From assembly GCF_009812055.1 (NCBI RefSeq), contig NZ_WQNH01000001.1, forward strand, positions 310,001-374,000: a stretch of 64,000 bases of DNA. The letters run 5' to 3'. The translations under genes and the position numbers were made by a program. The notes under the pieces were generated by a model that worked only from the letters and a program-made list of their open reading frames with translations, ran no database searches and was not told the origin of the DNA. The first letter of the stretch is position 1. The number at the start of each line of letters is the position of its first letter. Positions 1,654 through 26,336 of this stretch are shown here, in pieces. Origin of the DNA: Chelativorans xinjiangensis. GTDB lineage: Bacteria; Pseudomonadota; Alphaproteobacteria; Rhizobiales; Rhizobiaceae.

Positions 1654-1697
1654 GCCCGGCCTACGGCGGGCAGAGCAAGCGGGTGAAGGGCCGAGAC

Positions 1698-2531
1698 ATG
1701 AACATAATGCATGCGCCCGGCGAGCTTGTCGTTGGCATGCGCGCCTCCGCCCGGCCGGTGGTGACGATGCGGGAGGTCTCGAAAGTCTTCTCGAACGGGA
1801 CGCTCGCTCTGTCGGACATGTCGCTCGACGTGAAGAACGGCGAGTTTTTGAGCCTGCTCGGCCCCTCCGGCTGCGGCAAGTCCACGGCGTTGCGCATCAT
1901 CGCAGGTCTCGGCGTTGCGAGCTCCGGCACCATCGATTGGCCGAGCTCGCGCATCAACAGCAAGGGCCTGCCGCAGGGCGACATAAGCTTCGTCTTCCAG
2001 GAGCCGACCCTGATGCCGTGGCAGACGGTGTTCGGCAATGTCTACCTGCCGTTCCGGCTGAGACATCTTCCAAAGCGCCAGGCCCGCGACCAGATCATGG
2101 AAACGCTCGCCATGGTCGGCCTTGAGGATTTCGCGGAGGCCTATCCGCGAGAGCTTTCCGGGGGCATGAAGATGCGCGTCTCCATCGCCCGCGCGCTGGT
2201 GACCAAGCCAAAGCTCCTGCTGATGGACGAGCCCTTCGCCGCGCTCGACGAGATCACCCGGCAAAAGCTCAACGACGATGTGCTGCGGCTGTGGCGGCAG
2301 ACCGGCGTGACGGTGATCTTCGTCACACACTCGGTCTACGAGTCCGCCTATCTCTCGAGCCGCATCGTCGTCATGAAGGCTCGACCCGGCCAAGTTTTCG
2401 CCGAGGTTCCGCTTGAGCGGGCCGATATGCGCGACGGGTATTACCGCACCTCCGAGGAGTATCGCGCCACCTGTGAGCGCGTCTCGCGCACGCTCCAGGA
2501 AGCGATCGCAAGCGCAGAGCCTGTCTCATGA
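1698..2531 (+). CDS. ABC transporter ATP-binding protein (NitT/TauT type)
   Basis: 277 residues. It has Walker [10 protein letters not shown], a Q-loop (SFVFQEPTLMPWQTV), the signature LSGGMKMRVSIARAL, Walker B LLLMDEPFAALD and the switch His in FVTHSVYE, so it should be a functional ATPase. PTLMPW in the Q-loop region is typical of nitrate/taurine-type importers. The frame is open further upstream, but the ATG at 1698 follows a GTGAAGGG site and gives the normal length. The stop overlaps the permease start (ATGA at 2528). Confidence 0.92.
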   Translation: MNIMHAPGELVVGMRASARPVVTMREVSKVFSNGTLALSDMSLDVKNGEFLSLLGPSGCGKSTALRIIAGLGVASSGTIDWPSSRINSKGLPQGDISFVFQEPTLMPWQTVFGNVYLPFRLRHLPKRQARDQIMETLAMVGLEDFAEAYPRELSGGMKMRVSIARALVTKPKLLLMDEPFAALDEITRQKLNDDVLRLWRQTGVTVIFVTHSVYESAYLSSRIVVMKARPGQVFAEVPLERADMRDGYYRTSEEYRATCERVSRTLQEAIASAEPVS

Positions 2532-3397
2532 GCGGCGGGGTGCGGATGACGATTGCCGGCGGTAATATCCCGTCGAGGCAGGCGGATGCGCCCGCTCCGG
2601 CCAGAGCCAGCACGTCGCAAAAGCTGCTGCGCGTGAGCGTGCCGCTTCTCATGCTTTTCCTGGCTCTTCTGGCGTGGGACCTCTATGTGCGGCTGAACGA
2701 CGTGCCGCCCTATATCCTGCCCGGCCCGCTGACCGTTGCGGACGCGCTCCTCAACGACTGGGGCACGCTGTGGCCGGCGCTCTTCGTTACGACGAAGATC
2801 ACCTTCATGGCCCTCGCGCTGGCGCTTTTAGGCGGCGTCGGCCTTGCTGTCTTCCTCGTGCAGTCGCGCTGGGTGGAACTCGCCTTCTATCCCTTTGCGG
2901 TGATCCTTCAGGTGACACCCATCGTGGCCGTGGCACCGCTGATCCTCATCTATGCGCCGACCACGCAGGTGGCGCTCCTCATCTGCGCCTTCCTGGTCGC
3001 CTTCTTCCCCATTCTCTCCAACATGGTGCAGGGCCTGAAGAGCGTCGACCACCACCTCCTGAACCTTTTCGACCTCTACGGCGCCTCGCGCTGGCAGACG
3101 CTGCTTTATCTCAAGCTCCCGGCGGCTCAGCCATACTTCATGACCGGGCTCAGGATCGGCGGCGGGCTGGCGCTGATTGCAGCCGTGGTGGCGGAATTCG
3201 CCGCGGGATCGGCAGGCGCCAATTCGGGCCTTGCCTTCCGGCTCCTCGAAGCGCAATACCGGCTCAACATTCCACGGCTCTTCGCCGCGCTCATTCTCCT
3301 GTCGCTGCTCGGCGTCGCGATCTTCGCGCTCACCTCGTTCATCGCCTGGCTCTCGCTCCGGCGCTGGCACGAGAGCAGCGTGCGCAGGGAAAACTAG
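2528..3397 (+). CDS. ABC transporter permease (NitT/TauT type)
   Basis: 289 residues with about six hydrophobic segments and the cytoplasmic EAA-type loop near DLYGASRWQTLLYLKLPAA that contacts the ATPase. It starts by a 4-nt ATGA overlap with the ATPase gene, which implies translational coupling. The N-terminal 30 residues are polar, rich in Ala and Pro, and precede the first membrane helix. It forms the channel for the substrate bound by the 643-1653 protein. Confidence 0.92.
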   Translation: MSGGVRMTIAGGNIPSRQADAPAPARASTSQKLLRVSVPLLMLFLALLAWDLYVRLNDVPPYILPGPLTVADALLNDWGTLWPALFVTTKITFMALALALLGGVGLAVFLVQSRWVELAFYPFAVILQVTPIVAVAPLILIYAPTTQVALLICAFLVAFFPILSNMVQGLKSVDHHLLNLFDLYGASRWQTLLYLKLPAAQPYFMTGLRIGGGLALIAAVVAEFAAGSAGANSGLAFRLLEAQYRLNIPRLFAALILLSLLGVAIFALTSFIAWLSLRRWHESSVRREN

Positions 3398-3398
3398 A

Positions 3399-4715
3399 AT
3401 GCTGCCATCGTTCCTCGAAATCCCGCAGTCGGAGCGATTCATCCTGCGCAATGCGGCGCTGCCCGCGGTGGCAGCGAGCGGCTATGCCGCACCCGCGCGC
3501 GATGGCCTCCTTGCCGCCGATATCGAGATCGCCCACGGCCTGATCGCCGCCATCAGCGAGCCCGGCCAACAGGCGCAGAGCATCCCCGCCGTGGACCTGC
3601 GCGGTGGGCAGGTATGGCCGTGCTTCGCCGACATGCACACGCATCTCGACAAGGGACACATCTGGTCGCGCAAGAACAATCCCGACGGCACCTTCGACGG
3701 CGCGATCGAGGCTGTGCGCTGCGATCGGGAAGCCAACTGGTCGGCGCTGGACGTCGCCGCGCGCATGGATTTCTCCCTGCGCTCAGCCTATGCGCACGGC
3801 ACCAAGCTCATCCGCACGCATATCGACTCGTTGCCGCCGCAGCATGAAATCTCCTGGCCTGTCTTCGCCGAGATGCGCGAGAAATGGGCCGGCCGCATTG
3901 ATCTTCAGGCAGTCGCGCTCTTCCCCTTGGACCTCATGGAGGACCGCGCTGCCTACCTGGACCTGGTTGAGCAGGTAACGGCCCACGGCGGGCTGCTCGG
4001 CGGCGTCACCCGCATGGGGCCGATGTTGGAAGAGCAGCTGGAACTTCTGTTCCGGACGGCGATGGAGAAGGGGCTCGACATCGACCTCCACGTCGATGAA
4101 ACGGCCGATGCGGAAGCGAAGACGCTGCAGGCGATCGCCGAGGCCGTGATCCGCAACCGCTTCGACGGCCATGTTGTCGTCGGTCATTGCTGCTCGCTCG
4201 CCCGTCAGGGCGAGAATGAGGCTGCCGAGACCATCGACAAGGTGGCCGAGGCGGGGCTTGCCGTGGTCTCTCTGCCCATGTGCAACATGTATCTGCAGGA
4301 CCGGCAGGCAGGGCGCACGCCACGCTGGCGCGGGGTGACGCTCATCAACGAGCTGGCCGAGGCGGGAGTCGCAACCGCCATCGCCTCGGACAACACCCGC
4401 GATCCATTCTATGCCTATGGCGATCTCGATCCGGTCGAGGTCTTCCGCGAGGGCGTGCGTGTCCTGCATCTCGACCATCCCATCGACCTGGCACCGCGTC
4501 TTATAACCGCCAACCCCGCCAAAATCCTCCGGCGCCCCGACGTCGGGACGATCGCCGTGGGCAGGCCCGCCGATCTCGTGCTCTTCAGCGCCCGCGGCTG
4601 GACCGAGTTGCTCGCCCGCCCGCAGTCCGACCGGATCGTGATGCGCGGCGGGAAGACGATCGAGCGGCAACTGCCGGACTATCGCGAACTCGACGAACTT
4701 CTGGGGGTGTACTGA
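3399..4715 (+). CDS. Cytosine-deaminase-like amidohydrolase
   Basis: 438 residues of the metal-dependent amidohydrolase superfamily. Metal-site residues are visible at the positions expected for E. coli CodA: HTH (H80, H82), HVDE (H231, E234), GHCC (H263) and ASDNTRDPF (D331). CodA-type enzymes deaminate cytosine, isocytosine or related cyclic amidines. I infer hydrolytic deamination of a nitrogen heterocycle, without a firm substrate. The ATG at 3399 lies one base after the permease stop, although the frame stays open upstream. The next gene overlaps its stop (TGATG at 4713-4717). Linkage to an importer and two flavin enzymes suggests import followed by catabolism. Confidence 0.88.
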   Translation: MLPSFLEIPQSERFILRNAALPAVAASGYAAPARDGLLAADIEIAHGLIAAISEPGQQAQSIPAVDLRGGQVWPCFADMHTHLDKGHIWSRKNNPDGTFDGAIEAVRCDREANWSALDVAARMDFSLRSAYAHGTKLIRTHIDSLPPQHEISWPVFAEMREKWAGRIDLQAVALFPLDLMEDRAAYLDLVEQVTAHGGLLGGVTRMGPMLEEQLELLFRTAMEKGLDIDLHVDETADAEAKTLQAIAEAVIRNRFDGHVVVGHCCSLARQGENEAAETIDKVAEAGLAVVSLPMCNMYLQDRQAGRTPRWRGVTLINELAEAGVATAIASDNTRDPFYAYGDLDPVEVFREGVRVLHLDHPIDLAPRLITANPAKILRRPDVGTIAVGRPADLVLFSARGWTELLARPQSDRIVMRGGKTIERQLPDYRELDELLGVY

Positions 4716-6124
4716 TGCCGGATTACGCGAAGATCAAGGCAGAGCTTGATGGCATTGCTGTCGAGGACAATCCGGGCCTCGTGCGGCAGAAGAGCCGTGA
4801 CTTCTTCTGGTATTCGCCGATCCTGAAGGAGCAGCTCGACCAGGTGACGGGCGACCTGCTCGTCTCGCCGCAAAGCGAGGAAGAGGTGATCCGCACGCTG
4901 AAAGTCGCCTATCATCACGGCATCCCGGTGACCGCGCGCGGTGCGGGTACCGGCAATTACGGCCAGGCCATGCCTCTGTCGGGCGGCATCGTGCTCAACA
5001 TGGCGCGCATGAACAAGGTCAAGGCCATCTTCCCAGGCCGGGTGATTGCAGAACCGGGAACGGTGATGGCCGCACTCGACCGCGAGACTCGCGCCCATTC
5101 GGGGCAGGAGCTGCGCTTCCACCCCTCCACCCACAACACCGCCACTATCGGCGGCTTCGTGGCGGGCGGCTCGGGCGGCGTGGGCTCCATCAAATGGGGC
5201 GGCCTGCGCGACCTCGGCAACATCCTGCGGCTGCGCGTCGTAACCATGGAGGCGGAGCCGCGCGTAATGGAGCTCACCGGCTGGGAGCTGCAGAAGGTCA
5301 ATCACGCCTACGGCACCAATGGCATCATCACCGAGGTCGAGATGCCGCTGGCGCCAGCCTATGATTGGGTGGATGTGCTCGTCGGCTTCGACGGCTTCAT
5401 GCGCGCGGTCGAGTTCTCCGACCGGCTTGCCGCCTCTAACGGGCTTCTGGTCAAGGAAATCGCGCCGATTGCAGCGCCCATTCCCTATGACAGCTTCTCC
5501 CGCCACAAGCGGTATATCCGCCACCGCGACCAGTCCGTGGTCGTTATCATGGTCGCCCCGCACGCCATGGAGCCATTCCGGGCGCTCGTGGAGAAATTCC
5601 GCGGCGAGCTTCTCTTCCGCGCCGACGAGGTGGAGAGCATGAAGGGCATACCGGAAGCCTTCGAGCTTACCTGGAACCACACCACGCTTCGCGCGATGAA
5701 GGCGGACAAGAGCTTCACCTATCTCCAGGTGCAGTATCCGGGCCCGAACCACGTGGAGAAGGTCCGGCGCATGACGGAGATCCTCGGTGACGAGGTCCCT
5801 GGGCACCTGGAATTCATCCGCTTCGACGGGCAGGTGCAGTGTTCCGGCCTGCCGCTGGTGCGCTTCACCACCAAGGAACGGCTGGAGGAGATCATCAGGA
5901 TCCACGAGGACAATGGCTGCCCGATCTTCAACCCGCACCGCTACACGCTGGAGGAAGGCGGCATGAAACAGACCGACAAGATCCAGCTTGCCTTCAAGAA
6001 GCAGACGGACCCCAAGGGCCTGCTCAACCCCGGCAAGATGATCGCCTGGGAGAATCCCGACTTCGACTTCAAATCGGGCAAGACCTATCTCTATCCAGGC
6101 CTCGAGGCGCTCATGAGCGCCTGA
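4715..6124 (+). CDS. FAD-binding oxidoreductase (VAO/GlcD family)
   Basis: 469 residues. The N-terminal FAD-binding domain shows the PP-loop RGAGTGNYGQAMPLSGGIVL (about residues 72-91) and the second flavin segment GGFVAGGSGGVGSIKWGG (about 147-164), as in the vanillyl-alcohol-oxidase/glycolate oxidase group. No covalent-FAD histidine is obvious. It should oxidise a C-H or alcohol group of an intermediate from this operon; the substrate is not inferable. Its start overlaps the amidohydrolase stop and its own stop overlaps the next start, so the three enzymes are coupled. Confidence 0.88.
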   Translation: MPDYAKIKAELDGIAVEDNPGLVRQKSRDFFWYSPILKEQLDQVTGDLLVSPQSEEEVIRTLKVAYHHGIPVTARGAGTGNYGQAMPLSGGIVLNMARMNKVKAIFPGRVIAEPGTVMAALDRETRAHSGQELRFHPSTHNTATIGGFVAGGSGGVGSIKWGGLRDLGNILRLRVVTMEAEPRVMELTGWELQKVNHAYGTNGIITEVEMPLAPAYDWVDVLVGFDGFMRAVEFSDRLAASNGLLVKEIAPIAAPIPYDSFSRHKRYIRHRDQSVVVIMVAPHAMEPFRALVEKFRGELLFRADEVESMKGIPEAFELTWNHTTLRAMKADKSFTYLQVQYPGPNHVEKVRRMTEILGDEVPGHLEFIRFDGQVQCSGLPLVRFTTKERLEEIIRIHEDNGCPIFNPHRYTLEEGGMKQTDKIQLAFKKQTDPKGLLNPGKMIAWENPDFDFKSGKTYLYPGLEALMSA

Positions 6125-6705
6125 TGCGCGTCCTTGTCCTTTTCGCGCATCCGGTGGAATCGAGCTACAGCGCGGCCCTCCACGCCACGGTGGTGGAAAG
6201 CCTCGGCGCAGCCGGCCACGAGGTCGACGACTGTGATCTCTACGCGGAAGGTTTCGACCCGGTGCTCAGCCGTCACGACCGGCTCGTCTACCACGACATC
6301 CCGGAGAACCGCGCCCTGATCGAGCCCTATGTGCAGCGGCTGGAGAGCGCGGAAGGCCTGGTGATCGTCTCGCCGGTCTGGAATTTCGGCTTCCCGGCAA
6401 TTCTCAAGGGCTATTTCGATCGGGTCTGGGTGCCGGGTGTTTCCTTCGATATCGCCGATGGTCGCGTAAAACCCCGGCTCACCAATATCCGCAAGCTCGC
6501 CGCGGTGATGACCTACGGCGCAAACCCGCTGCGCGCGTTTCTGGCCGGCGACCCGCCGCGCAAACTGGTCAAGCGCGTGCTGCGCGCCACCGTGCGGCCG
6601 GTCGTGCCCGTCAAATACCTCGCGCACTACGACATGAACCGCTCGACACAGGAGACGCGGGCGCGCTTCCTTGCCCGTGTCGGAACGGAGATGGCGCGGT
6701 TTTAG
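6124..6705 (+). CDS. Flavodoxin-fold NAD(P)H:quinone-type oxidoreductase
   Basis: 193 residues of the Flavodoxin_2 / NQO family (as in KefF, MdaB). Supporting motifs are LVLFAHPVESSYSAAL at the N-terminus (FMN/FAD phosphate region) and SPVWNFGFPAILKGYFDRVW, the characteristic P-x-W-x-F-x-x-P-A-x-L-K segment. It likely passes electrons from NAD(P)H to a flavin or quinone, perhaps recycling electrons for the oxidase before it. Start TGATG overlaps the upstream stop. It is the last gene of the operon; a palindromic repeat begins at its final base. Confidence 0.87.
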   Translation: MRVLVLFAHPVESSYSAALHATVVESLGAAGHEVDDCDLYAEGFDPVLSRHDRLVYHDIPENRALIEPYVQRLESAEGLVIVSPVWNFGFPAILKGYFDRVWVPGVSFDIADGRVKPRLTNIRKLAAVMTYGANPLRAFLAGDPPRKLVKRVLRATVRPVVPVKYLAHYDMNRSTQETRARFLARVGTEMARF

Positions 6706-7228: not shown

Positions 7229-8146
7229 TTATCGGTCCCATAGCACGCGTACCGACATGGTGGCCGCAGCGGTGCGGTTTTCCACGCCGAGCTTGTTGAA
7301 TATCTGCTCCAGATGCTTGTTCACCGTGCGCGGGGAGAGGTCGAGGATCTCGGCGATCTCCTTGTTCGACTTTCCGTGCGTGATCCACAGAAGCACCTCT
7401 GCCGCGCGGAGTGACAGATCGAAGGCAGTCGCAAGCCGCTCCTCGTCGGTGCCTGCCTCACGGTCGATCAAGCGGATCAGGCGCTCCGCCCCGCCGGCAC
7501 CGCCAACGATGCGGCATTCCACCTTTTTGCCGTTGCGGCTGAGAATGTACGGTTCGGTCCGGCCCGGCTTCTGGGAGAGGAGCCAATCGGTGACTTCCCA
7601 TGGCAGGCGGCCGCCCTCCTCCACCGCGACGCCGCATTTCAGGAGCAGCTCGCTTGCCTGCGGCGTCGCCCACAGGAGCGTGCCCCGATTGTCGGTGACG
7701 ACGATGCGCCGGCCGGTACTGTCGAGCGCCTGGCGCGCGGAGCGGGCGCGGCGGGCATTCGCCAGATGCACCCGCATGCGCGCCAGAAGCTCCACGATCG
7801 GCACCGGCTTGACGACGAAGTCCACTCCGCCGGAGGCGAGCGCGTTGACCACGTGCTCGCTTTCGCCGAAGCCGGTCATGAAGATGATGGGGATGTCGGC
7901 CATACCCATCTCCGTCTTGAGGATGCGGCAGGTCTCGAAGCCGTCGATGCCGGGCATCTTGGCGTCCATCAGGATGATGTCCGGCCCGATCTCCTGGGCG
8001 ATGTTGAGTGCAGCGCGCCCGCTTGTCGCGACCACCACCTTCATGCCCTCCAGGCCCAGCGCGTCGGTAAGCATGCCGAGCGCATCCGGCGAATCATCCA
8101 CCACCAGCACGACGGGTGGTGCCGAGGAGGCGGCGCTCACGCCCAT
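7229..8146 (-). CDS. Response regulator, receiver plus LuxR-type HTH
   Basis: 305 residues. The N-terminal receiver has VLVVDDS (acidic pocket) and the phosphoryl Asp in ILMDAKMPG (D61), with Lys in FVVKPVP. A middle segment (about 150-235) reads like a degenerate PAS (VVTDNRGTLLWATPQASEL). A LuxR/NarL HTH follows (about 245-292; SNKEIAEILDLSPRTVNKHL). The start at 8146 is chosen for its AAAGGAG site; a GTG at 8197 and an ATG at 8194 overlapping the kinase stop are alternatives. It is clearly the partner of the kinase at 8194-11349 and likely controls the divergent urt-fmd operon. Confidence 0.87.
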   Translation of the reverse strand: MGVSAASSAPPVVLVVDDSPDALGMLTDALGLEGMKVVVATSGRAALNIAQEIGPDIILMDAKMPGIDGFETCRILKTEMGMADIPIIFMTGFGESEHVVNALASGGVDFVVKPVPIVELLARMRVHLANARRARSARQALDSTGRRIVVTDNRGTLLWATPQASELLLKCGVAVEEGGRLPWEVTDWLLSQKPGRTEPYILSRNGKKVECRIVGGAGGAERLIRLIDREAGTDEERLATAFDLSLRAAEVLLWITHGKSNKEIAEILDLSPRTVNKHLEQIFNKLGVENRTAAATMSVRVLWDR

Positions 8147-8193
8147 TCCGGCTGCTCCTTTCGTGTATGCATAGCCATGAAAGCCTCCATCCA

Positions 8194-11100
8194 TCACATG
8201 CCCTCACCGCTCTCGGCCAGCGGCCGCTCATGATACGTCCATTCGATGCCGAGCGCCGAGCCGAGCTGTTCCATGAGATCGTCGACACTGAACGGCTTGA
8301 CGAGATAGCCGTCATGCGCGCGGCGGTATTCCGGCAGGTTGCGCTCGTTGCCCGCGTCGGCGGAAATCATGATGATCGGCAGGTTCGGGTGGAGATGGCT
8401 GCGAACCTCCTGCGCCACCCGCCAACCCGAGGCGCCGGGCATGGCGACGTCGAGAATGAGCGCGTCCGGGCGCGCCTCAGCGAGCGCGGCAAGGCAGGCG
8501 GTGCCGTCCGGCACGGCGGTGACCGCAAAGCCGAGCGGCTCGAGGACATCTCCGATCAAGGCGCGCTGGGCGGGATCGTCGTCGGCGATCAGCACCTTGA
8601 ACGCCCTCCCCTTTATGCCGGCGATGGCCGCCGCTGGCGGTTTCTGCTCGTCGGGCCGTGTGGCCGCGCTGAGCATGAGGCGCACGGTGAACGTCGTGCC
8701 CCGTCCCCGTTCCGATTTCACGCTGAGTTCCCCGCCCATGATCTCCACCAGAAGCTTGGTGATCGTGAGGCCGAGGCCGGTACCGGGCGGGCTGACGCCA
8801 CCCGTGCCCTCTATCCTTTCGAAGGGCAGGAAGATGCGGTCTATGTCTTCGGCCGCGATGCCGATGCCCGTGTCCTCGATCTCGAAAGTGGCGATCTGGC
8901 TGCGATAGGTGACGCGGAAGGAGACCCGGTCGCGTTCGGTGAACTTCACCGCGTTGGAGAGCAGGTTGATGAGGATCTGCCGCAACCTCTTCTCGTCCGT
9001 GTAGACGTATTCGGGAATGTAGGACCCGGGCTCGAAGACAAAGCCGATGCCTTTCTCCTGCGCTTGCAGGGAGAACATGTCGACGAGCTGGTCGAGATAG
9101 GGGCGAAGTGCGGTCTTGTCCCGATAGATCTGCAGGCGGCCCGCCTCGATCTTGGAGATGTCGAGAAGCCCCTCGATCATTCCCGCCAGATGCTCGCCGG
9201 AGCGCTTGATGGTGCGGGCGGCGTTACCGACGATCTGGGGCGTCGGGTCGTGGCGCTCCAGGAGCTGCGCATAGCCGAGGATGGAGTTGAGCGGCGTGCG
9301 CAGCTCGTGGCTCAGACCCACGATGTATTTGCTCTTGGCGAGGTTGGCGGATTCGGCCGCCTCCTTTGCCTTCTGAAGCTGCCGGTCCGTCTCCTCGTGC
9401 GCCTCGATCTCCTCCATCAGGAGCGTCGTGTGGCGCCGTGCCTCGTCCTCGGCGAAGACCCGACTTTCATGCGCGAGCACGAAGAGCCAGACCATGATGG
9501 CGGCAATGACGAAGATGATGGCGAAAAGCCGCAGGAACATGGGGAAGACGAGGGCGGGCGGCAGGCCGCCGCCCACGGTCGACTGGTAGTAGACCACCGA
9601 GAGCACCAGCGCGATCAGCGCCGTGACCATGGTGAGGATGCCGAGATAGCTGCCGATGCGCGAACCGACGAGGTCGGCGACGTGCGGCGGGAAGACGGCG
9701 CGGGCGAAGCCGCCGATCTGCTCCGACAGCCTCGCGCCCTCCTTGCAGCGGTCGCCGCAGCGTGCGTCGAGCGAACAGCACAACGAGCAGATGGGCCCAC
9801 TGTAGATTGGGCAAGCGGCCATGTCCTCCGGCTCGAAGCTGTGCTCGCAGATGCAGCATTGTATGGTGCTGTGTCCATCGGGCAAGTGCGAGGTGCGGGC
9901 CAGATAGTAGCGTCCACCCGTGGCGACGGCGATGACGGGCGCAAGAAGGAAGGCGGCGGCGATGGCGACATGGGCGTAGAGCGCGGCCGCCACCGCGCCG
10001 AACAGACCGAGATAGGACATCAACGCCAACAGGATGGCGATGGCGGCCGCGCCGAAGCCGACCGGGTTGATGTCGTAGAGGTGGGCGCGTTTGAATTCGA
10101 TGTGGCGCGGCGACAAGCCGAGCGGCTTGTTGACCGTGAGGTCGGCGACGATGGCGGCAAGCCATGCTCCGGCGATCATGGCGTAGAGGCCCAGGATCTG
10201 CTCCAGCGCCTTGTAGATGCCGAACTGCATGAGAAGCAGCCCAATCACCACGTTGAAGACCACCCAGACCACGCGACCGGGATGGCTGTGGGTGAGGCGG
10301 GAGAAGAAATTCGACCAGGCGATGGACCCGGCATAGGTGTTGGTGACGTTGATCTTGACCTGGCACAGGACGATGAAGATGCCCGTCAGCCCCAGGGCAA
10401 GCTCGGGGCTTGCCACCATCTGCTGGAAGACCGACAGGTACATGCGCGTCGGCTCGGCCGCGTCATAAAAGGCGACGCCGCTCTGGAAGGCGAAGTAGGC
10501 GAGGAAGGAGCCGGCCAGCATCTTCATCGCCCCCAGCACCACCCATCCGGGGCCGGCAGCGATGAGCGCACTCCACCAGGCGATACGGTTGGCGGTGAGC
10601 TTGCGCGGCAGGAAGCGCAGATAATCGACCTGCTCGCCGATCTGCGCGACAACGGAGAAGACGACCGCCGAGGCCGCGCCGAACATGGCAAGCGAGAAGG
10701 TGCCGTCCACCGGCCCCCGAAGGCCCGTGTATCCGGTCCAGCCGCGCATCGCCGGCACGCTTTGGGTGGCGATATAGAGGAAGGGCAGGAGCTGCAGCAC
10801 GATCCAGAAGGGCTGCGTCCAGGCCTGAAAGCGGTTGATGAAGGTGATGCCGTGGATGACCAGCGGGATGACGAAGAGCGCGCTCACCACATAGCCGGCG
10901 GCGAGCGGGATGCCGAAGCACAGCTCCAGCGCCGTCGCCATGATCGCCGCTTCGATGGAAAAGAAGATGAAGGTGAAGCTCGCATATATGAGCGAGGTGA
11001 CCGTGGAGCCGAGATAGCCGAAGCCTGCCCCGCGCGTCAAAAGGTCGATGTCCACGCCATATTTGGCCGAATTGTAGCAGATCGGGATTCCCATGAGGAA

Positions 11101-11349
11101 CATGACGAGGCAGCTCGATAGAACCGCCCATAAGGTCGTCTCGAACCCATAGTTGAGGGTGAGCGTTCCGCCGATAGCCTCGAGCGCCAGGAATGAAACC
11201 GCGCCGATGGCCGTGTTGGCGATGCGCCAGGCCGGCCAGCGGCGGACTTTGGTGGCCGTGAAGCGCAAGGCGAAGTCTTCAAGCGTCTGATTGGCCACCC
11301 AGACATTGTAGGTGCGGCGCACGCGGGTGACCTTGAAACCCGCGGTCAT
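8194..11349 (-). CDS. Permease-type hybrid sensor histidine kinase (NCS1-like N-terminus)
   Basis: 1051 residues from the ATG at 11349 (AAGGCGG site five bases before; a TTG at 11367 is possible). Residues about 40-475 form roughly 12 membrane helices that resemble NCS1 purine/cytosine permeases (N-terminal YNVWVANQTLEDFALRF; TRGAGFGYLGSTVTSLIYAS). A soluble stretch at about 498-535 holds nine cysteines (CCIC, CSLCC, CGDRC), then two more helices (about 565-630) and a coiled coil. The kinase core has the H-box GLSHELRTPLNS (His 681), N-box NLLSNAVKF, G1 DTGIGI and G2 GTGLGLTI; a C-terminal receiver carries D967 in LILDVAMPG. It resembles CbrA in design, but with a different transporter family. 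Substrate sensing is inferred. Confidence 0.9.
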   Translation of the reverse strand: MTAGFKVTRVRRTYNVWVANQTLEDFALRFTATKVRRWPAWRIANTAIGAVSFLALEAIGGTLTLNYGFETTLWAVLSSCLVMFLMGIPICYNSAKYGVDIDLLTRGAGFGYLGSTVTSLIYASFTFIFFSIEAAIMATALELCFGIPLAAGYVVSALFVIPLVIHGITFINRFQAWTQPFWIVLQLLPFLYIATQSVPAMRGWTGYTGLRGPVDGTFSLAMFGAASAVVFSVVAQIGEQVDYLRFLPRKLTANRIAWWSALIAAGPGWVVLGAMKMLAGSFLAYFAFQSGVAFYDAAEPTRMYLSVFQQMVASPELALGLTGIFIVLCQVKINVTNTYAGSIAWSNFFSRLTHSHPGRVVWVVFNVVIGLLLMQFGIYKALEQILGLYAMIAGAWLAAIVADLTVNKPLGLSPRHIEFKRAHLYDINPVGFGAAAIAILLALMSYLGLFGAVAAALYAHVAIAAAFLLAPVIAVATGGRYYLARTSHLPDGHSTIQCCICEHSFEPEDMAACPIYSGPICSLCCSLDARCGDRCKEGARLSEQIGGFARAVFPPHVADLVGSRIGSYLGILTMVTALIALVLSVVYYQSTVGGGLPPALVFPMFLRLFAIIFVIAAIMVWLFVLAHESRVFAEDEARRHTTLLMEEIEAHEETDRQLQKAKEAAESANLAKSKYIVGLSHELRTPLNSILGYAQLLERHDPTPQIVGNAARTIKRSGEHLAGMIEGLLDISKIEAGRLQIYRDKTALRPYLDQLVDMFSLQAQEKGIGFVFEPGSYIPEYVYTDEKRLRQILINLLSNAVKFTERDRVSFRVTYRSQIATFEIEDTGIGIAAEDIDRIFLPFERIEGTGGVSPPGTGLGLTITKLLVEIMGGELSVKSERGRGTTFTVRLMLSAATRPDEQKPPAAAIAGIKGRAFKVLIADDDPAQRALIGDVLEPLGFAVTAVPDGTACLAALAEARPDALILDVAMPGASGWRVAQEVRSHLHPNLPIIMISADAGNERNLPEYRRAHDGYLVKPFSVDDLMEQLGSALGIEWTYHERPLAESGEGM

Positions 11350-11668
11350 GTCCGCCTTGCCCCCCAAACGACTTGCTTCACATGCATCGGTCTACTCCAC
11401 ACGCAACCGATGCCCTCTCCAGCGTCCCTGCCCCGCCCGCGCGTTCCTTGAGCGCCGGCAGCACGATGCTGCGGCGCCTGGGTTATTTTCCGTACCGAAG
11501 CCGGTGCGCGGAGTTCCCCTTCGTTATTTGCCGCAGCTTAGGGGGAAAAATGCGCCGCGGGAATACGTCAAATGCCCCGTTGATAGGCAGCAGCCTTAAA
11601 TGCCCAAAATTGCGGCAGTTGGCGATAGGCCAGCAGGTTTGAGATCAGGCAAGCGAGGCACAAGCATC
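11350..11668. other. Divergent intergenic region between sensor kinase and urtA
   Basis: This 319-bp stretch separates the kinase start (minus strand) from urtA (plus strand) and must hold both promoters. I see no convincing protein, no canonical -35/-10 pair, no clean sigma-54 site and no strong inverted repeat. If the response regulator at 7229 controls the urt-fmd operon, its site should be here. Confidence 0.5.
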
Positions 11669-12931
11669 ATGAGCGACGATACCCCTCGGAAGAGTCCCAT
11701 CGCCACACGCAGGCAGGTTCTTGCCGGCATCAGCGCCCTGCCCTTCATGGGCATGCTGGGCGGCAAAGTGAACGCGGCCGACTATCCGACGGCGGAGGTG
11801 AACACCACCGGCCTCGCCGTGACCGACGACAAGGTGACGGTGGGCATCCTGCACTCGGTCACCGGCACCATGGCGATTTCGGAGACCGGCTCCGTGCAGG
11901 CGGAAAAGCTCGCCATCAAGCAGATCAACGATATGGGCGGCGTGCTCGGCCGTCAAATCGACTTCATCCAGGAGGACGGCGCCTCCGACTGGCCGACCTT
12001 CGCCGAGAAGGCCAAGAAGCTTCTCGTTCAGGACAAGGTGGCGTCCGTGATGGGCTGCTGGACATCGGCCTCGCGCAAGGCGGTGCTGCCGGTTTTCGAA
12101 CAGTATAACGGCATGCTCTACTACCCGACCTTCTACGAAGGTCTCGAAGAGTCGCCGAACGTCATCTACACCGGCCAGGAAGCCACGCAGCAGATCATCG
12201 CCGGTATCGACTGGGTGGCGCAGAACAAGGGCGCCAAGAGCTTCTATCTTCTGGGCTCCGACTACATCTGGCCGCGCACCTCCAACAAGATCGCCCGCAA
12301 GCATATCGATAAGCTGGGACTGGAAGTGGTTGGCGAGGAGTACTACCCGCTCGGCCACACCCAGTTCAACTCGGTGATCAACAAGATCAAGCTCCGTAAG
12401 CCGGACGTCATCTACGCCATCATCGTCGGCGGCTCCAACGTCGCCTTCTATAAGCAGCTCAAGGCGGCGGGCATCGACATGACCAAGGAGAAGCCGCTGC
12501 TCCTCACCATCTCGGTGACGGAGGACGAGATCCTCGGCATCGGCGGCGAGAACATCGTCGGCGCCTATGCCTGCATGAAATACTTCCAGAGCCTGCCGAA
12601 CGACAACAATGCCGAGTTCGTCACGGCCTTCAAGGAGATGTGGGGCGAAGAGATCGTCATCGGCGACGTGACGCAGGCCGCTTATTTGGGACCGTGGCTG
12701 TGGAAGATGGCGGTGGAGAAGGCCGGCAGCTTCGACATCGACAAGGTTCGCGAAGCCTCTCCGGGCATCGAATTCACCAAGGCGCCGGAAGGCTACGTTC
12801 GCATCCACGAGAACCACCATCTGTGGTCCAAGACACGGGTCGGCCACGCGCTCGACGATGGCCAGTACGAGGTGGTGTTCGAGACGGAGGACCTCGTGGA
12901 GCCCGACCCCTTCCCCGAAGGCTATCAATAA
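11669..12931 (+). CDS. urtA: Urea/short-chain amide ABC transporter substrate-binding protein
   Basis: 420 residues, close to the usual UrtA length. The N-terminus KSPIATRRQVLAGISALPFM carries a twin-arginine motif before a hydrophobic stretch, so export by Tat is likely. Family landmarks are VGILHSVTGTMAISETGSVQ, GCWTSASRKAVLPVFE and LYYPTFYEG. It is a periplasmic type I binding protein for urea or, given fmdA in the same operon, formamide/acetamide (compare FmdD of Methylophilus). The start is the ATG at 11669, although the frame extends further upstream. A 246-bp gap with a repeat separates it from urtB. Confidence 0.92.
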   Translation: MSDDTPRKSPIATRRQVLAGISALPFMGMLGGKVNAADYPTAEVNTTGLAVTDDKVTVGILHSVTGTMAISETGSVQAEKLAIKQINDMGGVLGRQIDFIQEDGASDWPTFAEKAKKLLVQDKVASVMGCWTSASRKAVLPVFEQYNGMLYYPTFYEGLEESPNVIYTGQEATQQIIAGIDWVAQNKGAKSFYLLGSDYIWPRTSNKIARKHIDKLGLEVVGEEYYPLGHTQFNSVINKIKLRKPDVIYAIIVGGSNVAFYKQLKAAGIDMTKEKPLLLTISVTEDEILGIGGENIVGAYACMKYFQSLPNDNNAEFVTAFKEMWGEEIVIGDVTQAAYLGPWLWKMAVEKAGSFDIDKVREASPGIEFTKAPEGYVRIHENHHLWSKTRVGHALDDGQYEVVFETEDLVEPDPFPEGYQ

Positions 12932-12984
12932 GCCTCCAGCTCGGCCTCTCCGGCGCTCATCCGGGGAGGCTCCCCACGCCACGC

Positions 12985-13129
12985 GTCATCCCGGCCAAGG
13001 GAGCGCAAGCGACCGCGAGCCGGGATCCATTCCGTGACTCGTCCATGTTCCGGCCCGCGTCGCCAGAGCTTCAGCGAGGCGAGAATGGGTCCTGGACAGC
13101 CTCCGCTCCGCTTCGGCTTCCGGGATGAC
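12985..13129. repeat. Dispersed inverted-repeat element, copy 1
   Basis: The element opens with GTCATCCCGG and closes with CCGGGATGAC, its exact reverse complement. The interior shares GGGATCCATTCCGTGAC and GGACAGCCTCCGCT with the copy at 60342-60445. It occupies the gap between urtA and urtB. Copy 1 is longer (145 versus 104 bp) by an insert in its middle. It can fold into one long stem-loop. Confidence 0.8.
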
Positions 13130-13177
13130 GCCACGGGCGAAGGGCGCCGGCGTCAACGCAAACAGCACGAGGCAACC

Positions 13178-14104
13178 ATGATCGGCGACTACACCCTTGT
13201 CGAATTCAGCTCCATCCTGGCGATGCAGGGTTTCGCCGGGCTCATCCTCTTCTCCGTCTTCGTGCTGATGGCGCTGGGGCTTGCCATCATCTTCGGCCAG
13301 ATGGGCGTCATCAACATGGCCCATGGCGAGTTCATGATCCTCGGCGCCTATGTCACCTGGCTCTGCTCGCATTTCGTGACGGCCTATGTGCCGGCGTTGT
13401 TTCCCGTCTACTTCTTCGTTGCCATGGCGCTCGCCTTTCTCGTCTCGGGCGCGCTCGGCATGCTGGTCGAATGGGCGATGATCCGGCATCTCTACAAGCG
13501 CCCGCTCGACACATTGCTGGCGACCTGGGGCCTGAGCCTCATTCTGCAGCAGCTCTATCGCTCAGTCTTCGGCGCGCGCGAGGTCGGCGTCAGCCTGCCC
13601 GACTGGATGATGGGGTCCATCGCACTGACCGACATCATCGAGGTGCCGATCAACGGCATCTTCGTCATGGTGCTGACGATGCTTATCTCCCTTGGCGTCT
13701 TTATCCTGATGTTCCGTTCCGCTTGGGGCAGGCGCGTGCGCGCCGTTGTGCAGAACCGCGCGATGGCCGGTGCCGTCGGCATCAATACCAAGAAGGTGGA
13801 CCGCGTGACCTTCGGCCTCGGATGCGGGGTGGCGGGCGTTGCCGGCTCCGCCTTCACCATGATCGGCTCCACCGGGCCGACGGCTGGGCAGCTCTACATC
13901 GTCGACACCTTCCTTGTCGTCGTATTCGGCGGCGCGGCCAGCCTCATCGGCACCATCGCCTCCGCCTTCACTATCAGCCAGGCCCAGTCGACCATGGAGT
14001 TCTTCATGTCGGGTTCGATGGCCAAGGTGCTCACGCTTCTGACCGTGGTCGGCATTCTCATGCTGCGGCCCGAAGGCCTCTTCACACTCAAGATGCGCCG
14101 CTGA
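13178..14104 (+). CDS. urtB: Urea/amide ABC transporter permease UrtB
   Basis: 308 residues of the LivH-type branched-chain permease family, with about eight membrane helices. ALGLAIIFGQMGVINMAHGE is the hallmark N-terminal motif and GINTKKVDRVTFGLGCGVAG the ATPase-contact region. Length and order (A-B-C-D-E) fit UrtB. The ATG at 13178 follows a weak ACGAGG site; an upstream extension of the frame runs through the repeat and is not coding. urtC starts 13 bp after. Confidence 0.92.
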   Translation: MIGDYTLVEFSSILAMQGFAGLILFSVFVLMALGLAIIFGQMGVINMAHGEFMILGAYVTWLCSHFVTAYVPALFPVYFFVAMALAFLVSGALGMLVEWAMIRHLYKRPLDTLLATWGLSLILQQLYRSVFGAREVGVSLPDWMMGSIALTDIIEVPINGIFVMVLTMLISLGVFILMFRSAWGRRVRAVVQNRAMAGAVGINTKKVDRVTFGLGCGVAGVAGSAFTMIGSTGPTAGQLYIVDTFLVVVFGGAASLIGTIASAFTISQAQSTMEFFMSGSMAKVLTLLTVVGILMLRPEGLFTLKMRR

Positions 14105-14117
14105 GGGAGACCTTGCG

Positions 14118-15257
14118 ATGAACGCCACTTTCTACACCCGGCGCGAATGGATAGCCCTTGCCGTCCTTGCCGCGCTCATCCTGATCGTCTTCCCCGCCAC
14201 CATGGACGTCTTCCGCCTCAACCTGGTGGGCAAGTATCTCACCTATGCCTTCGTTGCCGCGGGGTTGGTTCTGTGCTGGGGGCACGGCGGAATCCTAAGC
14301 CTCGGCCAGGGCATTTTCTTCGGCCTCGGCGGCTACTGCATGGCCATGTTCCTGAAGCTGGAGGCTTCCAGCCCGGAAAACACGGCCATCCAGTCCACGC
14401 CCGGTATTCCCGATTTCATGGACTGGAACCAGGTCACCGAACTTCCCTTCTGGTGGATCCCCTTCAAGTCCTTCCCGTTCACGCTCGCCGCCGTCGTGCT
14501 GGTGCCGGTCATCTTCGCCTACATCATCGGCGCGGCCATGTTCAAAAGGCGGGTGGGCGGCGTCTATTTCGCCATCATCACCCAGGCGATCGCCGCCATC
14601 CTCACCATCCTCATCATCGGCCAGCAGGGCTACACCGGCGGGGTCAACGGCATCACCGACCTGCGCACCCTGCTCGGCTGGGACATCCGCACCGACAGCG
14701 CCAAGTTCATCCTCTACTTCGTCAACGCCGCCCTCCTGATCGTAGTGCTCCTCCTCGGTCAGGCAGTGCGGGTCTCCAAGTTCGGCCGGCTCTTGATCGC
14801 CATGCGCGACAAGGAGGACCGGGTGCGCTTCTCCGGCTACAGCGTGGCCGATTTCAAGATCTTCATCTTCTGCCTGGCGGCCGCCTTCTCGGCCATCGGC
14901 GGGGCGATGTTCACGCTGCAGGTGGGGTTCATGTCGCCCTCGTTCGTGGGCATCGTGCCGTCCATCGAAATGGTCATCTTTGCCGCCGTCGGCGGGCGCT
15001 TGTCGCTCTTCGGCGCGGTCTACGGCGCGCTCATCGTCAACTGGGCAAAGACCAGCTTCTCCGAGAGCTTTCCGGAACTCTGGCTGTTCGCCATGGGCGG
15101 CCTTTTCATCGCCGTCGTCATGGCCTTCCCCAACGGGCTAGCCGGCCTCTTCCGCTCCCATGTCGAGCCGCTTCTGGCAAAGCTCACGCGGAAGTCGCCT
15201 TCGCCGCCCGCTCCCGACGCTACACCGGCCGAAGCCGTCAAGCTGGCCGCTGAATAG
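14118..15257 (+). CDS. urtC: Urea/amide ABC transporter permease UrtC
   Basis: 379 residues, a LivM-type permease. About ten hydrophobic segments are visible, and GLVLCWGHGGILSLGQGIFFGLGGY is the family's G-x-G motif region. A periplasmic loop of about 40 residues (ASSPENTAIQSTPGIPDFMD) is usual for UrtC rather than LivM. The C-terminus is a polar Ala/Pro-rich tail. It pairs with UrtB in the membrane. Confidence 0.92.
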   Translation: MNATFYTRREWIALAVLAALILIVFPATMDVFRLNLVGKYLTYAFVAAGLVLCWGHGGILSLGQGIFFGLGGYCMAMFLKLEASSPENTAIQSTPGIPDFMDWNQVTELPFWWIPFKSFPFTLAAVVLVPVIFAYIIGAAMFKRRVGGVYFAIITQAIAAILTILIIGQQGYTGGVNGITDLRTLLGWDIRTDSAKFILYFVNAALLIVVLLLGQAVRVSKFGRLLIAMRDKEDRVRFSGYSVADFKIFIFCLAAAFSAIGGAMFTLQVGFMSPSFVGIVPSIEMVIFAAVGGRLSLFGAVYGALIVNWAKTSFSESFPELWLFAMGGLFIAVVMAFPNGLAGLFRSHVEPLLAKLTRKSPSPPAPDATPAEAVKLAAE

Positions 15258-15268
15258 GAGGCCCACCC

Positions 15269-16033
<765 letters not shown>

Positions 16034-16042: not shown

Positions 16043-16732
16043 ATGCTCAACGTCGACAATCTCAGCGTCTCCTACGGCCAGAGCGAGGTGATCCACTCCG
16101 TCTCCTTCGGCGTGAAGCCCGGTGAAATCGTCGCCATCATGGGGCGCAACGGCATGGGCAAGACCACGCTCATGAAGTCGCTCATCGGCATGCTGCCGGC
16201 GCAAGCGGGCGGCATCAGCATCGACGGCGATGCGATCGAAGCTTCGGAAAGCTACGAGCGGGTCGCAAAGGGCCTCGCCTATGTGCCGCAGGGGCGGATG
16301 GTCTTTTCCACGATGACGGTGAAGGAGAACATCGAGACCGGCCTCACCGTGACCGGCGAAAGCACGGTGCCGGGCGACATCTATGAGCTGTTCCCCGTGC
16401 TTCTCGAAATGAAGAGCCGGCGCGGCGGCAACCTCTCCGGCGGCCAGCAGCAGCAGCTTGCAATCGCCCGCGCGCTCGCCTCGCGGCCCAAGGTGCTGCT
16501 GCTCGACGAGCCGACGGAGGGAATCCAACCCTCCATCATCAAGGAGATGGCGCGCACATTGCGCCGCATCCGCGACGAGCGCGGCCTTTCCATCGTCGTC
16601 TCCGAGCAGGTTTTAAGCTTCGCCCTCGACATCGCCGACCGCGTGCTCGTCATCGAGAACGGCGAATTCGTCCATGAAAGCCCGCGGGCGGGAATCGACG
16701 AGAAGAAAGTCGCGTCCTTCCTGTCCGTCTGA
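16043..16732 (+). CDS. urtE: Urea/amide ABC transporter ATPase UrtE
   Basis: 229 residues, LivF type. Walker A GRNGMGKTT, signature LSGGQQQQLAIARAL and Walker B VLLLDEPTEGIQPSII are all intact; the poly-Gln signature and the IQPSII extension are typical of UrtE. Only 9 bp separate it from urtD. With UrtD it energises the UrtBC channel. Confidence 0.93.
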   Translation: MLNVDNLSVSYGQSEVIHSVSFGVKPGEIVAIMGRNGMGKTTLMKSLIGMLPAQAGGISIDGDAIEASESYERVAKGLAYVPQGRMVFSTMTVKENIETGLTVTGESTVPGDIYELFPVLLEMKSRRGGNLSGGQQQQLAIARALASRPKVLLLDEPTEGIQPSIIKEMARTLRRIRDERGLSIVVSEQVLSFALDIADRVLVIENGEFVHESPRAGIDEKKVASFLSV

Positions 16733-16765
16733 CCAAATCCACGTATTCACAAAGAGGAGCCATCC

Positions 16766-17998
16766 ATGCCCGACACATTGATCAAGGTCGATCTCGCGTC
16801 TTCGCCTTACGAGAACGAGATGATCCACAACCGCTGGCATCCCGACATCCCCATGGCCTGCTGGGTCGAACCGGGCGACGATTTCCGCGTCGAGACGCAC
16901 GACTGGACCGGCGGTCAGATCAAGAACGACGACGACGCCGCAGATGTGCGCGACGTGGACCTGAACCAAGTCCATTTCCTGTCCGGGCCGATCGGCGTCA
17001 AGGGCGCCGAACCCGGCGATCTCCTCGTCGTCGACATCCTCGATATCGGCGCCTTCGACAATTCGCTCTGGGGCTTCAACGGCTTCTTCTCCAAGAAGAA
17101 CGGCGGCGGCTTCCTGACCGAGCATTTCCCCGAGGCGCAGAAATCGATCTGGGATTTCCACGGCATGTTCACCTCCTCCCGCCACGTGCCGGGGGTGAAA
17201 TATGCCGGCCTCATCCATCCAGGCCTCATCGGCTGCCTGCCGGACAGGAAGATGCTGGAGATGTGGAACACGCGCGAGAAGGCGCTGTTCGATACCGATC
17301 CCGAGCGTGTACCGGCGCTTGCCACGCTGCCCAATGGCGACAAGTCCGCCCATATGGGCACGCTCAAGGGCGAGGCGCGCGACAAGGCAGCCGCCGAGGG
17401 TGCGCGCACCGTGCCGCCGCGCGAACACGGCGGCAACTGCGACATCAAGGATCTGAGCCGCGGCTCGAAGATCTACTTCCCCGTCTATGTGGACGGCGCC
17501 GGCCTCTCCATGGGCGACCTGCACTTTTCCCAGGGCGACGGCGAGATCACCTTCTGCGGCGCCATCGAGATGGCCGGCTGGCTGCACATCAAGGTCTCGC
17601 TCCTGAAGGATGGCATGGCCAAATACGGCATCAAGAACCCGATCTTCCGCCCCTCCCCCATCACGCCCAAATACGACGACTACCTGATCTTCGAGGGCAT
17701 CTCGGTCGACGAGGCCGGCAAGCAGCACTATCTCGACGTGCACATCGCCTACCGCCAGGCCTGCCTCAATGCCATCGAGTACCTCACCAAGTTCGGCTAC
17801 TCCAGGGCTCAGGCCTACGCCATCCTCGGCACCGCGCCCGTGCAAGGGCACATTTCCGGCGTCGTCGACATCCCCAACGCCTGCGCTACGCTGTGGCTGC
17901 CTACCGACATCTTCGAGTTCGACATCATGCCGGGGAACGCCGGGCCGGTGAAGCACCTCGACGGCTCGGTCTCCGTACCGCTCGCACCCGATCTGTGA
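16766..17998 (+). CDS. fmdA: Formamidase FmdA
   Basis: 410 residues, matching the roughly 407 of characterised formamidases. Family landmarks seen are PCHI-class variants such as MFTSSRHVPGVKYAGLIHPG, VPPREHGGNCDIKDLSRGSK and the conserved metal-site run DLHFSQGDGEITFCGAIEM. The enzyme hydrolyses formamide to formate and ammonia. An AGAGGAGC ribosome site precedes the ATG. Being downstream of urtABCDE suggests that the imported amide is deaminated here to supply ammonium. Confidence 0.94.
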   Translation: MPDTLIKVDLASSPYENEMIHNRWHPDIPMACWVEPGDDFRVETHDWTGGQIKNDDDAADVRDVDLNQVHFLSGPIGVKGAEPGDLLVVDILDIGAFDNSLWGFNGFFSKKNGGGFLTEHFPEAQKSIWDFHGMFTSSRHVPGVKYAGLIHPGLIGCLPDRKMLEMWNTREKALFDTDPERVPALATLPNGDKSAHMGTLKGEARDKAAAEGARTVPPREHGGNCDIKDLSRGSKIYFPVYVDGAGLSMGDLHFSQGDGEITFCGAIEMAGWLHIKVSLLKDGMAKYGIKNPIFRPSPITPKYDDYLIFEGISVDEAGKQHYLDVHIAYRQACLNAIEYLTKFGYSRAQAYAILGTAPVQGHISGVVDIPNACATLWLPTDIFEFDIMPGNAGPVKHLDGSVSVPLAPDL

Positions 17999-18008
17999 GG
18001 CTTCTCCG

Positions 18009-18344
18009 ATGCCCTTCTACGACTACGAATGCGGGGAGTGCGGTGTCTTCACCGCGCTCCGCCCCATGGCGAAGGCGGCCGAGCCCTGCGACTGCCCCGA
18101 ATGCGGCGCGTCCGCCCCGCGTGTCATCTTGCGCACACCCAACTTCGCCCTCATGGAACCGGGAATGCGCGTCGCGCACGCCACCAACGAGCGCGCCGCC
18201 CACAACCCGAAGAGCACCAGGGGTGGCCAAGCGCACGGACCGGGATGCTCGTGCTGCACGGGAAGACGTCCGTCAAAAACCGTCAGCCAGCCAGACGGCG
18301 CCAAGACATTTCCGTCCGCAAGGCCTTGGATGATCAGCCACTAG
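18009..18344 (+). CDS. fmdB: FmdB-family zinc ribbon protein
   Basis: 111 residues. The N-terminus MPFYDYECGECGVF and the CDCPECG pair form the CxxC...CxxC zinc ribbon of the FmdB/regulatory family. A second Cys cluster (GPGCSCC) lies near residue 80. In Methylophilus the fmdB homologue sits in the formamidase operon and was proposed to regulate it. It begins 10 bp after fmdA and closes the operon. The C-terminal 30 residues look unconserved. Confidence 0.88.
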   Translation: MPFYDYECGECGVFTALRPMAKAAEPCDCPECGASAPRVILRTPNFALMEPGMRVAHATNERAAHNPKSTRGGQAHGPGCSCCTGRRPSKTVSQPDGAKTFPSARPWMISH

Positions 18345-18566
18345 CACTGCATGCTCCTCTTGAACGCCCGGAATCGCCGGAGGTCAGGCCTTTCCGCAAA
18401 CTTCCGTCTTATCGGGCACGGTCTAAAGTCCGAACCGCCGGCCGTAGAGGTCCGATACCCGGAACAGCGCCGGGAAAGGCCCGTTTAGGCGCAGATTCAT
18501 CGGCCATTGTACTGCCGGAGAAGCGGCAGCATCGGCCGGTGAATCGCCTATGAAGAGGAGAAACCA

Positions 18567-19448: not shown

Positions 19449-19483
19449 CGGTTGACGTCGCGCTTACCTAGCGAAGCCTGCGT

Positions 19484-19511
19484 GTCAGCCTGCCGGTCCC
19501 GGCAGGCTGAC
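19484..19511. terminator. Perfect hairpin downstream of the acidic secreted gene
   Basis: GTCAGCCTGCCGG and CCGGCAGGCTGAC pair over 13 bp around a TC loop. It lies 36 bp after the stop at 19448. There is no T-run, so termination would be factor-assisted, or the hairpin protects the 3' end. Confidence 0.55.
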
Positions 19512-19652
19512 CATTGGACCATCGCTTCACGAGGACGGCACTGATCTGACCGCTTCTTGGCACGAAGTCTCCATGATTATTGTCGACAGTCAGGAGTATT
19601 CTATCTTCTTGAGTGGATTGAGAGAGCCAAGCGGCTGTAGGGGAATGGAGCC

Positions 19653-20255: not shown

Positions 20256-20328
20256 TCGCGAAACCGATCTCCGGGCGCCATGGGCATCTTCGCGGACTTT
20301 CACGAGTGGATGCTTCCGGCGCGCCGGT

Positions 20329-24446: not shown

Positions 24447-24473
24447 AACCGGTCAAGGGAGGAGGAACAGGAT

Positions 24474-26315: not shown

Positions 26316-26336
26316 TTGCGAAGGAGAAGCACTCCA

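Follow-up and report, generated by a model that had tools for sequence, protein, structure and literature searches.

We analysed a 64,000-nucleotide stretch of the Chelativorans xinjiangensis genome (contig NZ_WQNH01000001.1, positions 310,001 to 374,000), referred to here as the window, with the focus on the hybrid sensor histidine kinase P0001 (1051 amino acids), encoded on the minus strand at 8194..11349. This protein is likely to be a transporter-derived receptor kinase, of the transceptor type, that responds to small amide nitrogen sources and activates the divergent urtABCDE-fmdA operon. Urea and short amides commonly serve as sources of nitrogen, and formamide, acetamide and urea are all built on an NH2-C=O unit, bearing H, CH3 or NH2. 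A search of open-licence papers returned neither a membrane sensor kinase for urea or short amides nor an NCS1-type sensor kinase carrying the cysteine module described below.

The open frame of P0001 runs from an ATG at 11349 to a stop codon at 8194, a TTG at 11367 being the alternative start. The protein can be divided into an NCS1-type (LeuT-fold) membrane domain (residues ~20-490, 9880..11292), a cysteine module (residues 498-535, 9745..9858), two further helices taken from the model as transmembrane (residues 564-591 and 598 to ~625, 9475..9660) and a C-terminal part with the DHp, CA and receiver domains (residues 674-1028, 8266..9330), all on the minus strand. The predicted structure places about 12 membrane-type helices at residues 40-477, followed beyond the small cysteine module by helices at 564-591 and 598-659, the second of which continues towards the kinase part. 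Pfam identified HisKA (674-737), HATPase_c (784-893) and Response_reg (919-1028), and its scan of residues 1-660 gave zero matches above the curated cut-off. The phospho-acceptor His681 and the receiver Asp967 were assigned by motif. For comparison, 139 sensor loci were assembled: the window, the best 80 of at least 580 stretches confirmed by tblastn in named genomes (these 80 mostly from alpha- and gammaproteobacteria by title), the host's own paralogue, 18 loci from the window's family and 39 from its phylum; named and other genomes may share species. His681 is kept in 138 of the 139 sequences and Asp967 in 134, the remaining five being gaps. Judged from its HisKA, HATPase_c and receiver domains with their phospho-acceptors, P0001 qualifies as a hybrid histidine kinase. 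A first-pass annotation of this DNA had proposed an N-terminal domain of about 12 helices, nine cysteines within about 40 residues, two helices, a kinase and a receiver, facing an amide/urea uptake operon; its frame, strand and coordinates are correct, the nine cysteines fall within 38 residues, and the gene is indeed divergent from urtABCDE-fmdA.

An intergenic region at 11350..11668 separates the kinase from urtA, when ATG 11669 is taken as the urtA start. On the plus strand follow urtA (11669..12931), for the substrate-binding protein of a urea/amide ATP-binding cassette (ABC) transporter (TIGR03407, 546.4 bits against a cut-off of 492.75), the permease genes urtB (13175..14104, over the cut-off of TIGR03409) and urtC (14118..15257, over that of TIGR03408), the ATPase genes urtD (15269..16033) and urtE (16043..16732), both named by operon position and by matches in relatives, and the formamidase gene fmdA (16766..17998; NF045496, 775 bits against a cut-off of 500; PF03069).

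Among sampled genomes, relatives of the sensor were matched in 30 of 101 from the window's family and in 56 of 398 from its phylum, a few of the latter partial or weak, so that the combination of domains, described in the first-pass annotation as uncommon, is not rare. The genomic linkage of these sensors is to amide and urea use. Among the 139 loci, 97 have fmdA nearby, one has fmdA together with a ureG match, and for 23 the neighbours include urease genes, with ureC, ureD or ureG above threshold; the count of homologues beside urt-fmd genes that had been proposed as a check thus gives 98 with fmdA and 23 with urease genes. In a further eight loci only urt genes of the fmdA type are in view, in three only those of the urease type, and seven have no context over threshold. 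Three of these seven (L076, L093, L102) are located on contigs that are short or end nearby, L125 is a fragment with a weak ureG match, and L048 faces a gene taken by eye for amiE. Of 140 stretches searched, 39 hold a match to this amiE-like gene, and 37 of those are fmdA loci. The host genome itself carries one sensor of each kind: its own paralogue (51% identical; contig 50, ~16600-36000, L110 and L111) is accompanied by a LuxR regulator and is divergent from a second urtABCDE set, which is followed by ureD, a ureJ-like gene, ureC and ureG (ureD, ureJ and ureG named by eye).

To place these contexts on a phylogeny, a tree was built from 95 sensors dereplicated at 85% identity, with L125 left out and the permease L196 as the outgroup. 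For its labels, four rows without context were uncounted, rows with urt genes only were grouped by urt type, and the mixed row was placed with fmdA. The urease context requires five changes on the best tree, at least four of them on well-supported branches, compared with 19 for shuffled labels. The context therefore switched repeatedly while the sensor stayed. Such repeated switching fits a ligand class common to both pathways.

Structural evidence relates the membrane domain to NCS1 transporters. An AlphaFold model of residues 1-660, built from a 51-row alignment (mean predicted local distance difference test score, pLDDT, 81.7; predicted template modelling score, pTM, 0.81), was compared with the PDB using Foldseek. 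Ranks 1-5 were all CodB or Mhp1 (E 4.7e-9 to 5.2e-8; TM-score by target 0.68-0.77), and the next-best family, at rank 6, was a sodium-coupled sialic acid symporter of the SSS family (E 1e-5). As in CodB and Mhp1, the first membrane helix of the model is broken, near residue 53. A second line of evidence comes from L196, a stand-alone permease of 497 amino acids, which is not among the 139 loci. It passes PF02133 (36.4 bits against a cut-off of 23.5), matches TIGR00800 with E 2.5e-16, yet below that model's cut-off, and aligns with P0001 residues 21-495 both by BLASTP (28% identity, E 3e-35) and by hhalign (99.9%). This alignment, taken with the PF02133 match, indicates that the sensor shares descent with a branch of the NCS1 family. 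The NCS1-like sensor of the first-pass annotation is thereby supported by fold and by a bridging permease, rather than by a direct Pfam match, and the N-terminal region did not turn out to be a plain seven-transmembrane sensor family. L196, the closest stand-alone relative found, sits in an amide-type gene cluster; its neighbours encode a CN-hydrolase, a UrtA-family binding protein, an AmiR/ANTAR protein and an IclR regulator. This cluster (9949-15825 of that locus), with its two-domain CN-hydrolase, is possibly an amide uptake cluster in which a permease replaces the ABC system.

The substrate pocket was mapped by aligning Escherichia coli CodB, L196 and the 95 sensors at low identity, with CodB residues taken from PMC9379551. 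According to the available passages of that paper, the aromatic pair sandwiching the ring (W108 and F204 in CodB) is conserved throughout NCS1. In this low-identity alignment the W108 column corresponds to F129 of the sensors (F in 83 of 95, L in 12) and the F204 column to L233 in 94 of 95, with V in the window protein, and hence the aromatic sandwich is lost. The counterparts of CodB R216 and Y285 are the invariant R245 and Y339, and T126, Q236, K332 and N337 are likewise identical in all 95 sensors. The Na2-site residues N275, T278 and T279 align to K332, V335 and T336 (T in 82 of 95) in an uncertain register; removing a 3-residue gap by hand moves T278 to K332 and T279 to I333, and the Na2 threonine pair is lost either way. 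The sensors thus differ from CodB and Mhp1 in their fusion to a kinase and in the loss of both the ring-stacking aromatics and this threonine pair, and from CodB in an invariant lysine within the Na2 region, subject to the same uncertainty of register. From the pocket, the ligand is probably a small, non-ring compound, and a sodium dependence of the sensor is probably absent. Because both the PF02133 model and the aromatic pair failed, we do not class the sensor as an NCS1 transporter.

Whether the sensors of the two contexts discriminate between ligands bears directly on this proposal. A possible, less probable account is that fmdA- and urease-linked sensors detect the same molecule, either urea or a general set of small amides, with specificity residing only in the operon. 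It agrees with the identity of T126, Q236, R245 and N337 in both contexts, with the lack of any discriminating residue that reached significance, and with the fmdA-linked UrtA passing the urea UrtA model. On this account, the two diverged copies kept by the host, one per context, would be redundant, and the available passages of the SIMBAL paper (PMC3098086) make the case for amides, and not urea, as the cargo of the fmdA/amidase-linked urt transporter in Bradyrhizobium. Formamide is also suggested, in the accessible part of PMC13209695, for a Pseudomonas veronii cluster.

Between the membrane domain and the last two helices lies the cysteine module, with cysteines at positions 498, 499, 501, 513, 521, 524, 525, 531 and 535. 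Eight of them (C498, C501, C513, C521, C524, C525, C531, C535), together with Y516 and D533, are conserved in 138 of the 139 sequences in the alignment, which counts the window protein among them, and this supports the cysteine module of the first-pass annotation; the lone exception to the eight-cysteine pattern is L125, a fragment of 388 amino acids. C499 is variable (C in 64 of 139), as is H503. In the model it consists of two short strands and a helix (510-528), and the module modelled in isolation reached a mean pLDDT of 74.3. The Foldseek search with the module gave a best E of 0.64 and none below 0.001, most of the 50 listed matches being titled as RING, FYVE, PHD, U-box or LIM-like. The module resembles RING, FYVE and PHD zinc fingers in these titles and in its eight conserved cysteines, and differs from them in being bacterial and in the weakness of that best match; no Pfam zinc-finger family matched it, except weakly in up to three of 51 members. 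The metal- or redox-type character that the first-pass annotation gave the module is thus not supported by a significant match. With low certainty, the models suggest a two-zinc finger. Given its position between helix 12 and the last two helices, a cytoplasmic N-terminus would place the finger on that side of the membrane too.

A profile of the module searched against the 398 genomes of the phylum, scoring up to 15 candidates per genome, returned 59 matches in 53 genomes. Of these, 58 are in frames of at least 894 amino acids, the size of the sensor kinase, so the module is found only with the permease-like domain; the remaining match (E 0.008, in a frame of 55 amino acids) looks like chance. 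This association, a genomic context of amide and urea use instead of redox functions, and fold matches that are weak and mostly to zinc fingers make it improbable that the sensing is done mainly by the module (redox, iron-sulfur or metal), despite its eight nearly invariant cysteines, with the permease-like domain as an anchor or transporter. Somewhat less improbable, and still doubtful, is a combined arrangement in which an NCS1-fold receptor for formamide, acetamide or urea is joined to an eight-cysteine, two-metal finger that would serve both as coupling joint and as a second input for zinc or thiol state, substrate and metal or redox state being read together. On that view, its recurrent moves between formamidase and urease operons would make the sensor an evolvable chassis for amide and urea sensing.

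The position of the module invites comparison with the SLC5/STAC kinases CbrA, CrbS and RpuS, which, in the passages available (PMC5715377, PMC9100948, PMC13022988), likewise join a transporter-fold sensor to a histidine kinase through a coupling module. From the same passages, CrbS is also a hybrid kinase and CrbR a LuxR-family regulator using an inverted repeat. P0001 differs from these kinases in its membrane domain, which is nearest to NCS1 with the best SSS match at rank 6 only, and in its coupling part, which the model, with no STAC profile searched, shows as a pair of short strands with one short and two long helices and not as the STAC four-helix bundle. In CbrA, STAC is packed beneath the SLC5 domain, and a relay of motion has been proposed (PMC13022988, in part); by this precedent, the cysteine module would hold the place of STAC. 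Transporter-type sensor kinases are thus known, and P0001, NCS1-like by predicted fold, would work like such a transceptor kinase.

The probable partner of the kinase is encoded immediately downstream on the same strand. The frame at 7229..8197 adjoins the kinase stop codon and encodes a NarL/LuxR-type response regulator, with a receiver (PF00072) and a LuxR/GerE helix-turn-helix (PF00196). In 133 of the 139 loci the kinase gene is followed, in the same orientation, by a match to this regulator. The six loci without an adjacent regulator are L076 and L125, which are cut or broken, L124, L193 and L194, which have short sensors, and L103, where kinase and regulator form a single frame of 1436 amino acids (9635-14293) with the regulator, including its helix-turn-helix, at residues 1136-1434. 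This natural fusion supports the kinase-regulator pairing. The sensors of L124, L193 and L194 are shorter and diverged (~880 amino acids), keep the cysteine module and have gaps at the receiver Asp; they lie near fmdA, with neither a urtA match over threshold nor an adjacent regulator match.

A common palindrome, TACGTCA-N2-TGACGTA, occurs upstream of the kinases. Scanning 450 bases upstream of each kinase start (138 regions, 61,790 bases) gave 17 perfect sites, 27 with one mismatch and 13 with two, compared with 8, 9 and 11, respectively, elsewhere in these loci (2.76 million bases in all); the latter include sites, such as those in L118, L122 and L129, that by their coordinates directly precede urtA. 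After dereplication, a site with at most two mismatches is present in 43 of 93 regions, against 0.3 in dinucleotide shuffles and at most one for any scrambled palindrome; by context, these sites fall in 31 of 64 fmdA regions and 4 of 18 urease regions. In the window, the candidate site is at 11564..11579 on the plus strand, with the TACGTCA half-site intact at 11564-11570. The 7-2-7 arrangement resembles that of NarL-type sites and would suit a LuxR-type neighbour. We infer that the regulator binds this palindrome.

Sites resembling sigma-54 promoters, with at most two mismatches, were also observed upstream of the kinase, in 65 of 137 regions scanned compared with 7.5 in mononucleotide shuffles; 61 of the 65 are directed at the kinase gene, such as those at -151 in L035 and -50 in L094. 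Near-identical Bradyrhizobium loci account for many of these, and the window lacks such a site, its best candidate having four mismatches. They suggest nitrogen control of the sensor gene itself. The kinase-directed sites would also agree with a sensor that reports nitrogen status or the flux through the transporter in general, perhaps acting together with UrtA as a co-sensor, instead of binding the amide itself. We regard this as about as improbable as a cysteine-based main sensor, in view of L124, L193 and L194 near fmdA and of L048 facing its amiE-like gene, all without a urtA match over threshold.

A receptor kinase for small amides would operate as follows. The NCS1-type domain would bind a short amide, here most likely formamide and possibly acetamide or urea, and occupancy would change the conformation of the permease fold. 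The cysteine module, which would be cytoplasmic and probably binds zinc, may then relay the movement, together with the two extra helices, to the DHp helix and so change kinase activity. The phosphate would reach the adjacent LuxR-type regulator either directly or via the hybrid receiver. The regulator would bind a site of the TACGTCA-N2-TGACGTA type in the divergent intergenic region and activate urtABCDE-fmdA. If this is right, a ligand class can be assigned to a large set of kinases, along with a target operon and a candidate operator, and a second transporter family, besides SLC5, has taken the route from transporter to receptor with a different coupling module, which provides an independent system for asking how kinases are driven by a transporter fold. 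The paralogue pair in one genome, one on the formamidase side and one on the urease side, offers a natural comparison.

Several results weigh against this proposal. PF02133 (Transp_cyt_pur) was listed for none of 51 sensor domains at E 1, the profile of the 51 sensors found no NCS1 match among PDB sequences, and CodB alone reached a probability of 15% against the sensor profile in hhalign. Because these direct profile links failed, the NCS1 assignment rests on the predicted fold and on L196, and the match to Transp_cyt_pur proposed earlier as a check appeared for this bridging permease only. Searches of the host genome with PF02133 gave zero matches, and L196 against PDB sequences gave a single, unrelated one. 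The ligand argument is one of neighbourhood; a different amide, or a single compound shared by the two contexts, could be what is sensed. Residues separating fmdA- from urease-linked sensors were sought and none was shown to track context; those tested, 231, 169 and 336, cannot become significant because there are only four independent pairs. The context counts lean towards the fmdA type because 80 of the 139 loci are the closest relatives by score, and L117 and L119 have no amide or urea genes within flanks of 5-10 kb. The palindrome is absent, even at up to four mismatches, from 13 of 23 urease-linked regions, and the window's own copy carries four mismatches outside its perfect half-site. 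Across the host genome, 37 sites with at most three mismatches compare with 96 per strand in the reversed control; the sites there are swamped by chance and therefore define no regulon, and the 3-mismatch site of the host's own paralogue is within chance for the whole genome.

The first-pass annotation had allowed for a nucleobase, a ureide or an amide as the signal, and had linked the kinase to a nearby cytosine-deaminase-like operon (643-6705); the contexts of the 139 loci favour the amide or ureide type, and the replaced aromatics speak against a nucleobase. A sensor of nucleobases, hydantoin or allantoin tied to that operon is very improbable: the NCS1 fold, a gene at 3396-4715 passing the cytosine deaminase model PRK07583 and a RidA-type gene adjoining the regulator would fit it, but none of the deaminase, NMT1-type and RidA genes turned up in 100 stretches from relatives, examined with flanks of at most 10 kb, the ring-sandwiching pair of CodB is lost and the genomic links are to formamidase, amidase or urease. 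The deaminase operon as partner, and with it a nucleobase as ligand, was rejected on the absent neighbours and the lost aromatic pair. One of the 100 stretches, L080, has a match to the flavin adenine dinucleotide (FAD) oxidase. The operon at 643-6705 encodes an NMT1-type binding protein, an ABC ATPase and permease (by eye), the amidohydrolase passing PRK07583, a GlcD-like FAD oxidase (under the cut-off) and a quinone-reductase-like protein (by eye).

Among other regulatory systems for amides, AmiC/AmiR shares with P0001 the linkage to amide uptake and amidase genes, and L196 lies beside AmiR/ANTAR and UrtA-family proteins. The two differ in that AmiC/AmiR, in the passages available (PMC13209695), uses a soluble ligand-binding protein and an antiterminator, whereas here a membrane receptor kinase and a DNA-binding regulator are predicted. 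In an Ectopseudomonas genome, a second urt operon has been shown with a hybrid kinase and a LuxR-type regulator next to it, in passages without an analysis of the sensor (PMC13296017).

Three further features lie beyond fmdA in the window. The frame at 18009..18344, on the plus strand, encodes a small protein with two CxxC pairs, which we take by eye to be FmdB-like. Beside the fmdA operon, 18567-19448 encodes a Ser/Ala/Asp-rich low-complexity protein that appears by eye to be of the secreted type, and 20329-22523 holds a second two-component pair, also identified by eye, with a sensor kinase frame and a LuxR-type regulator.

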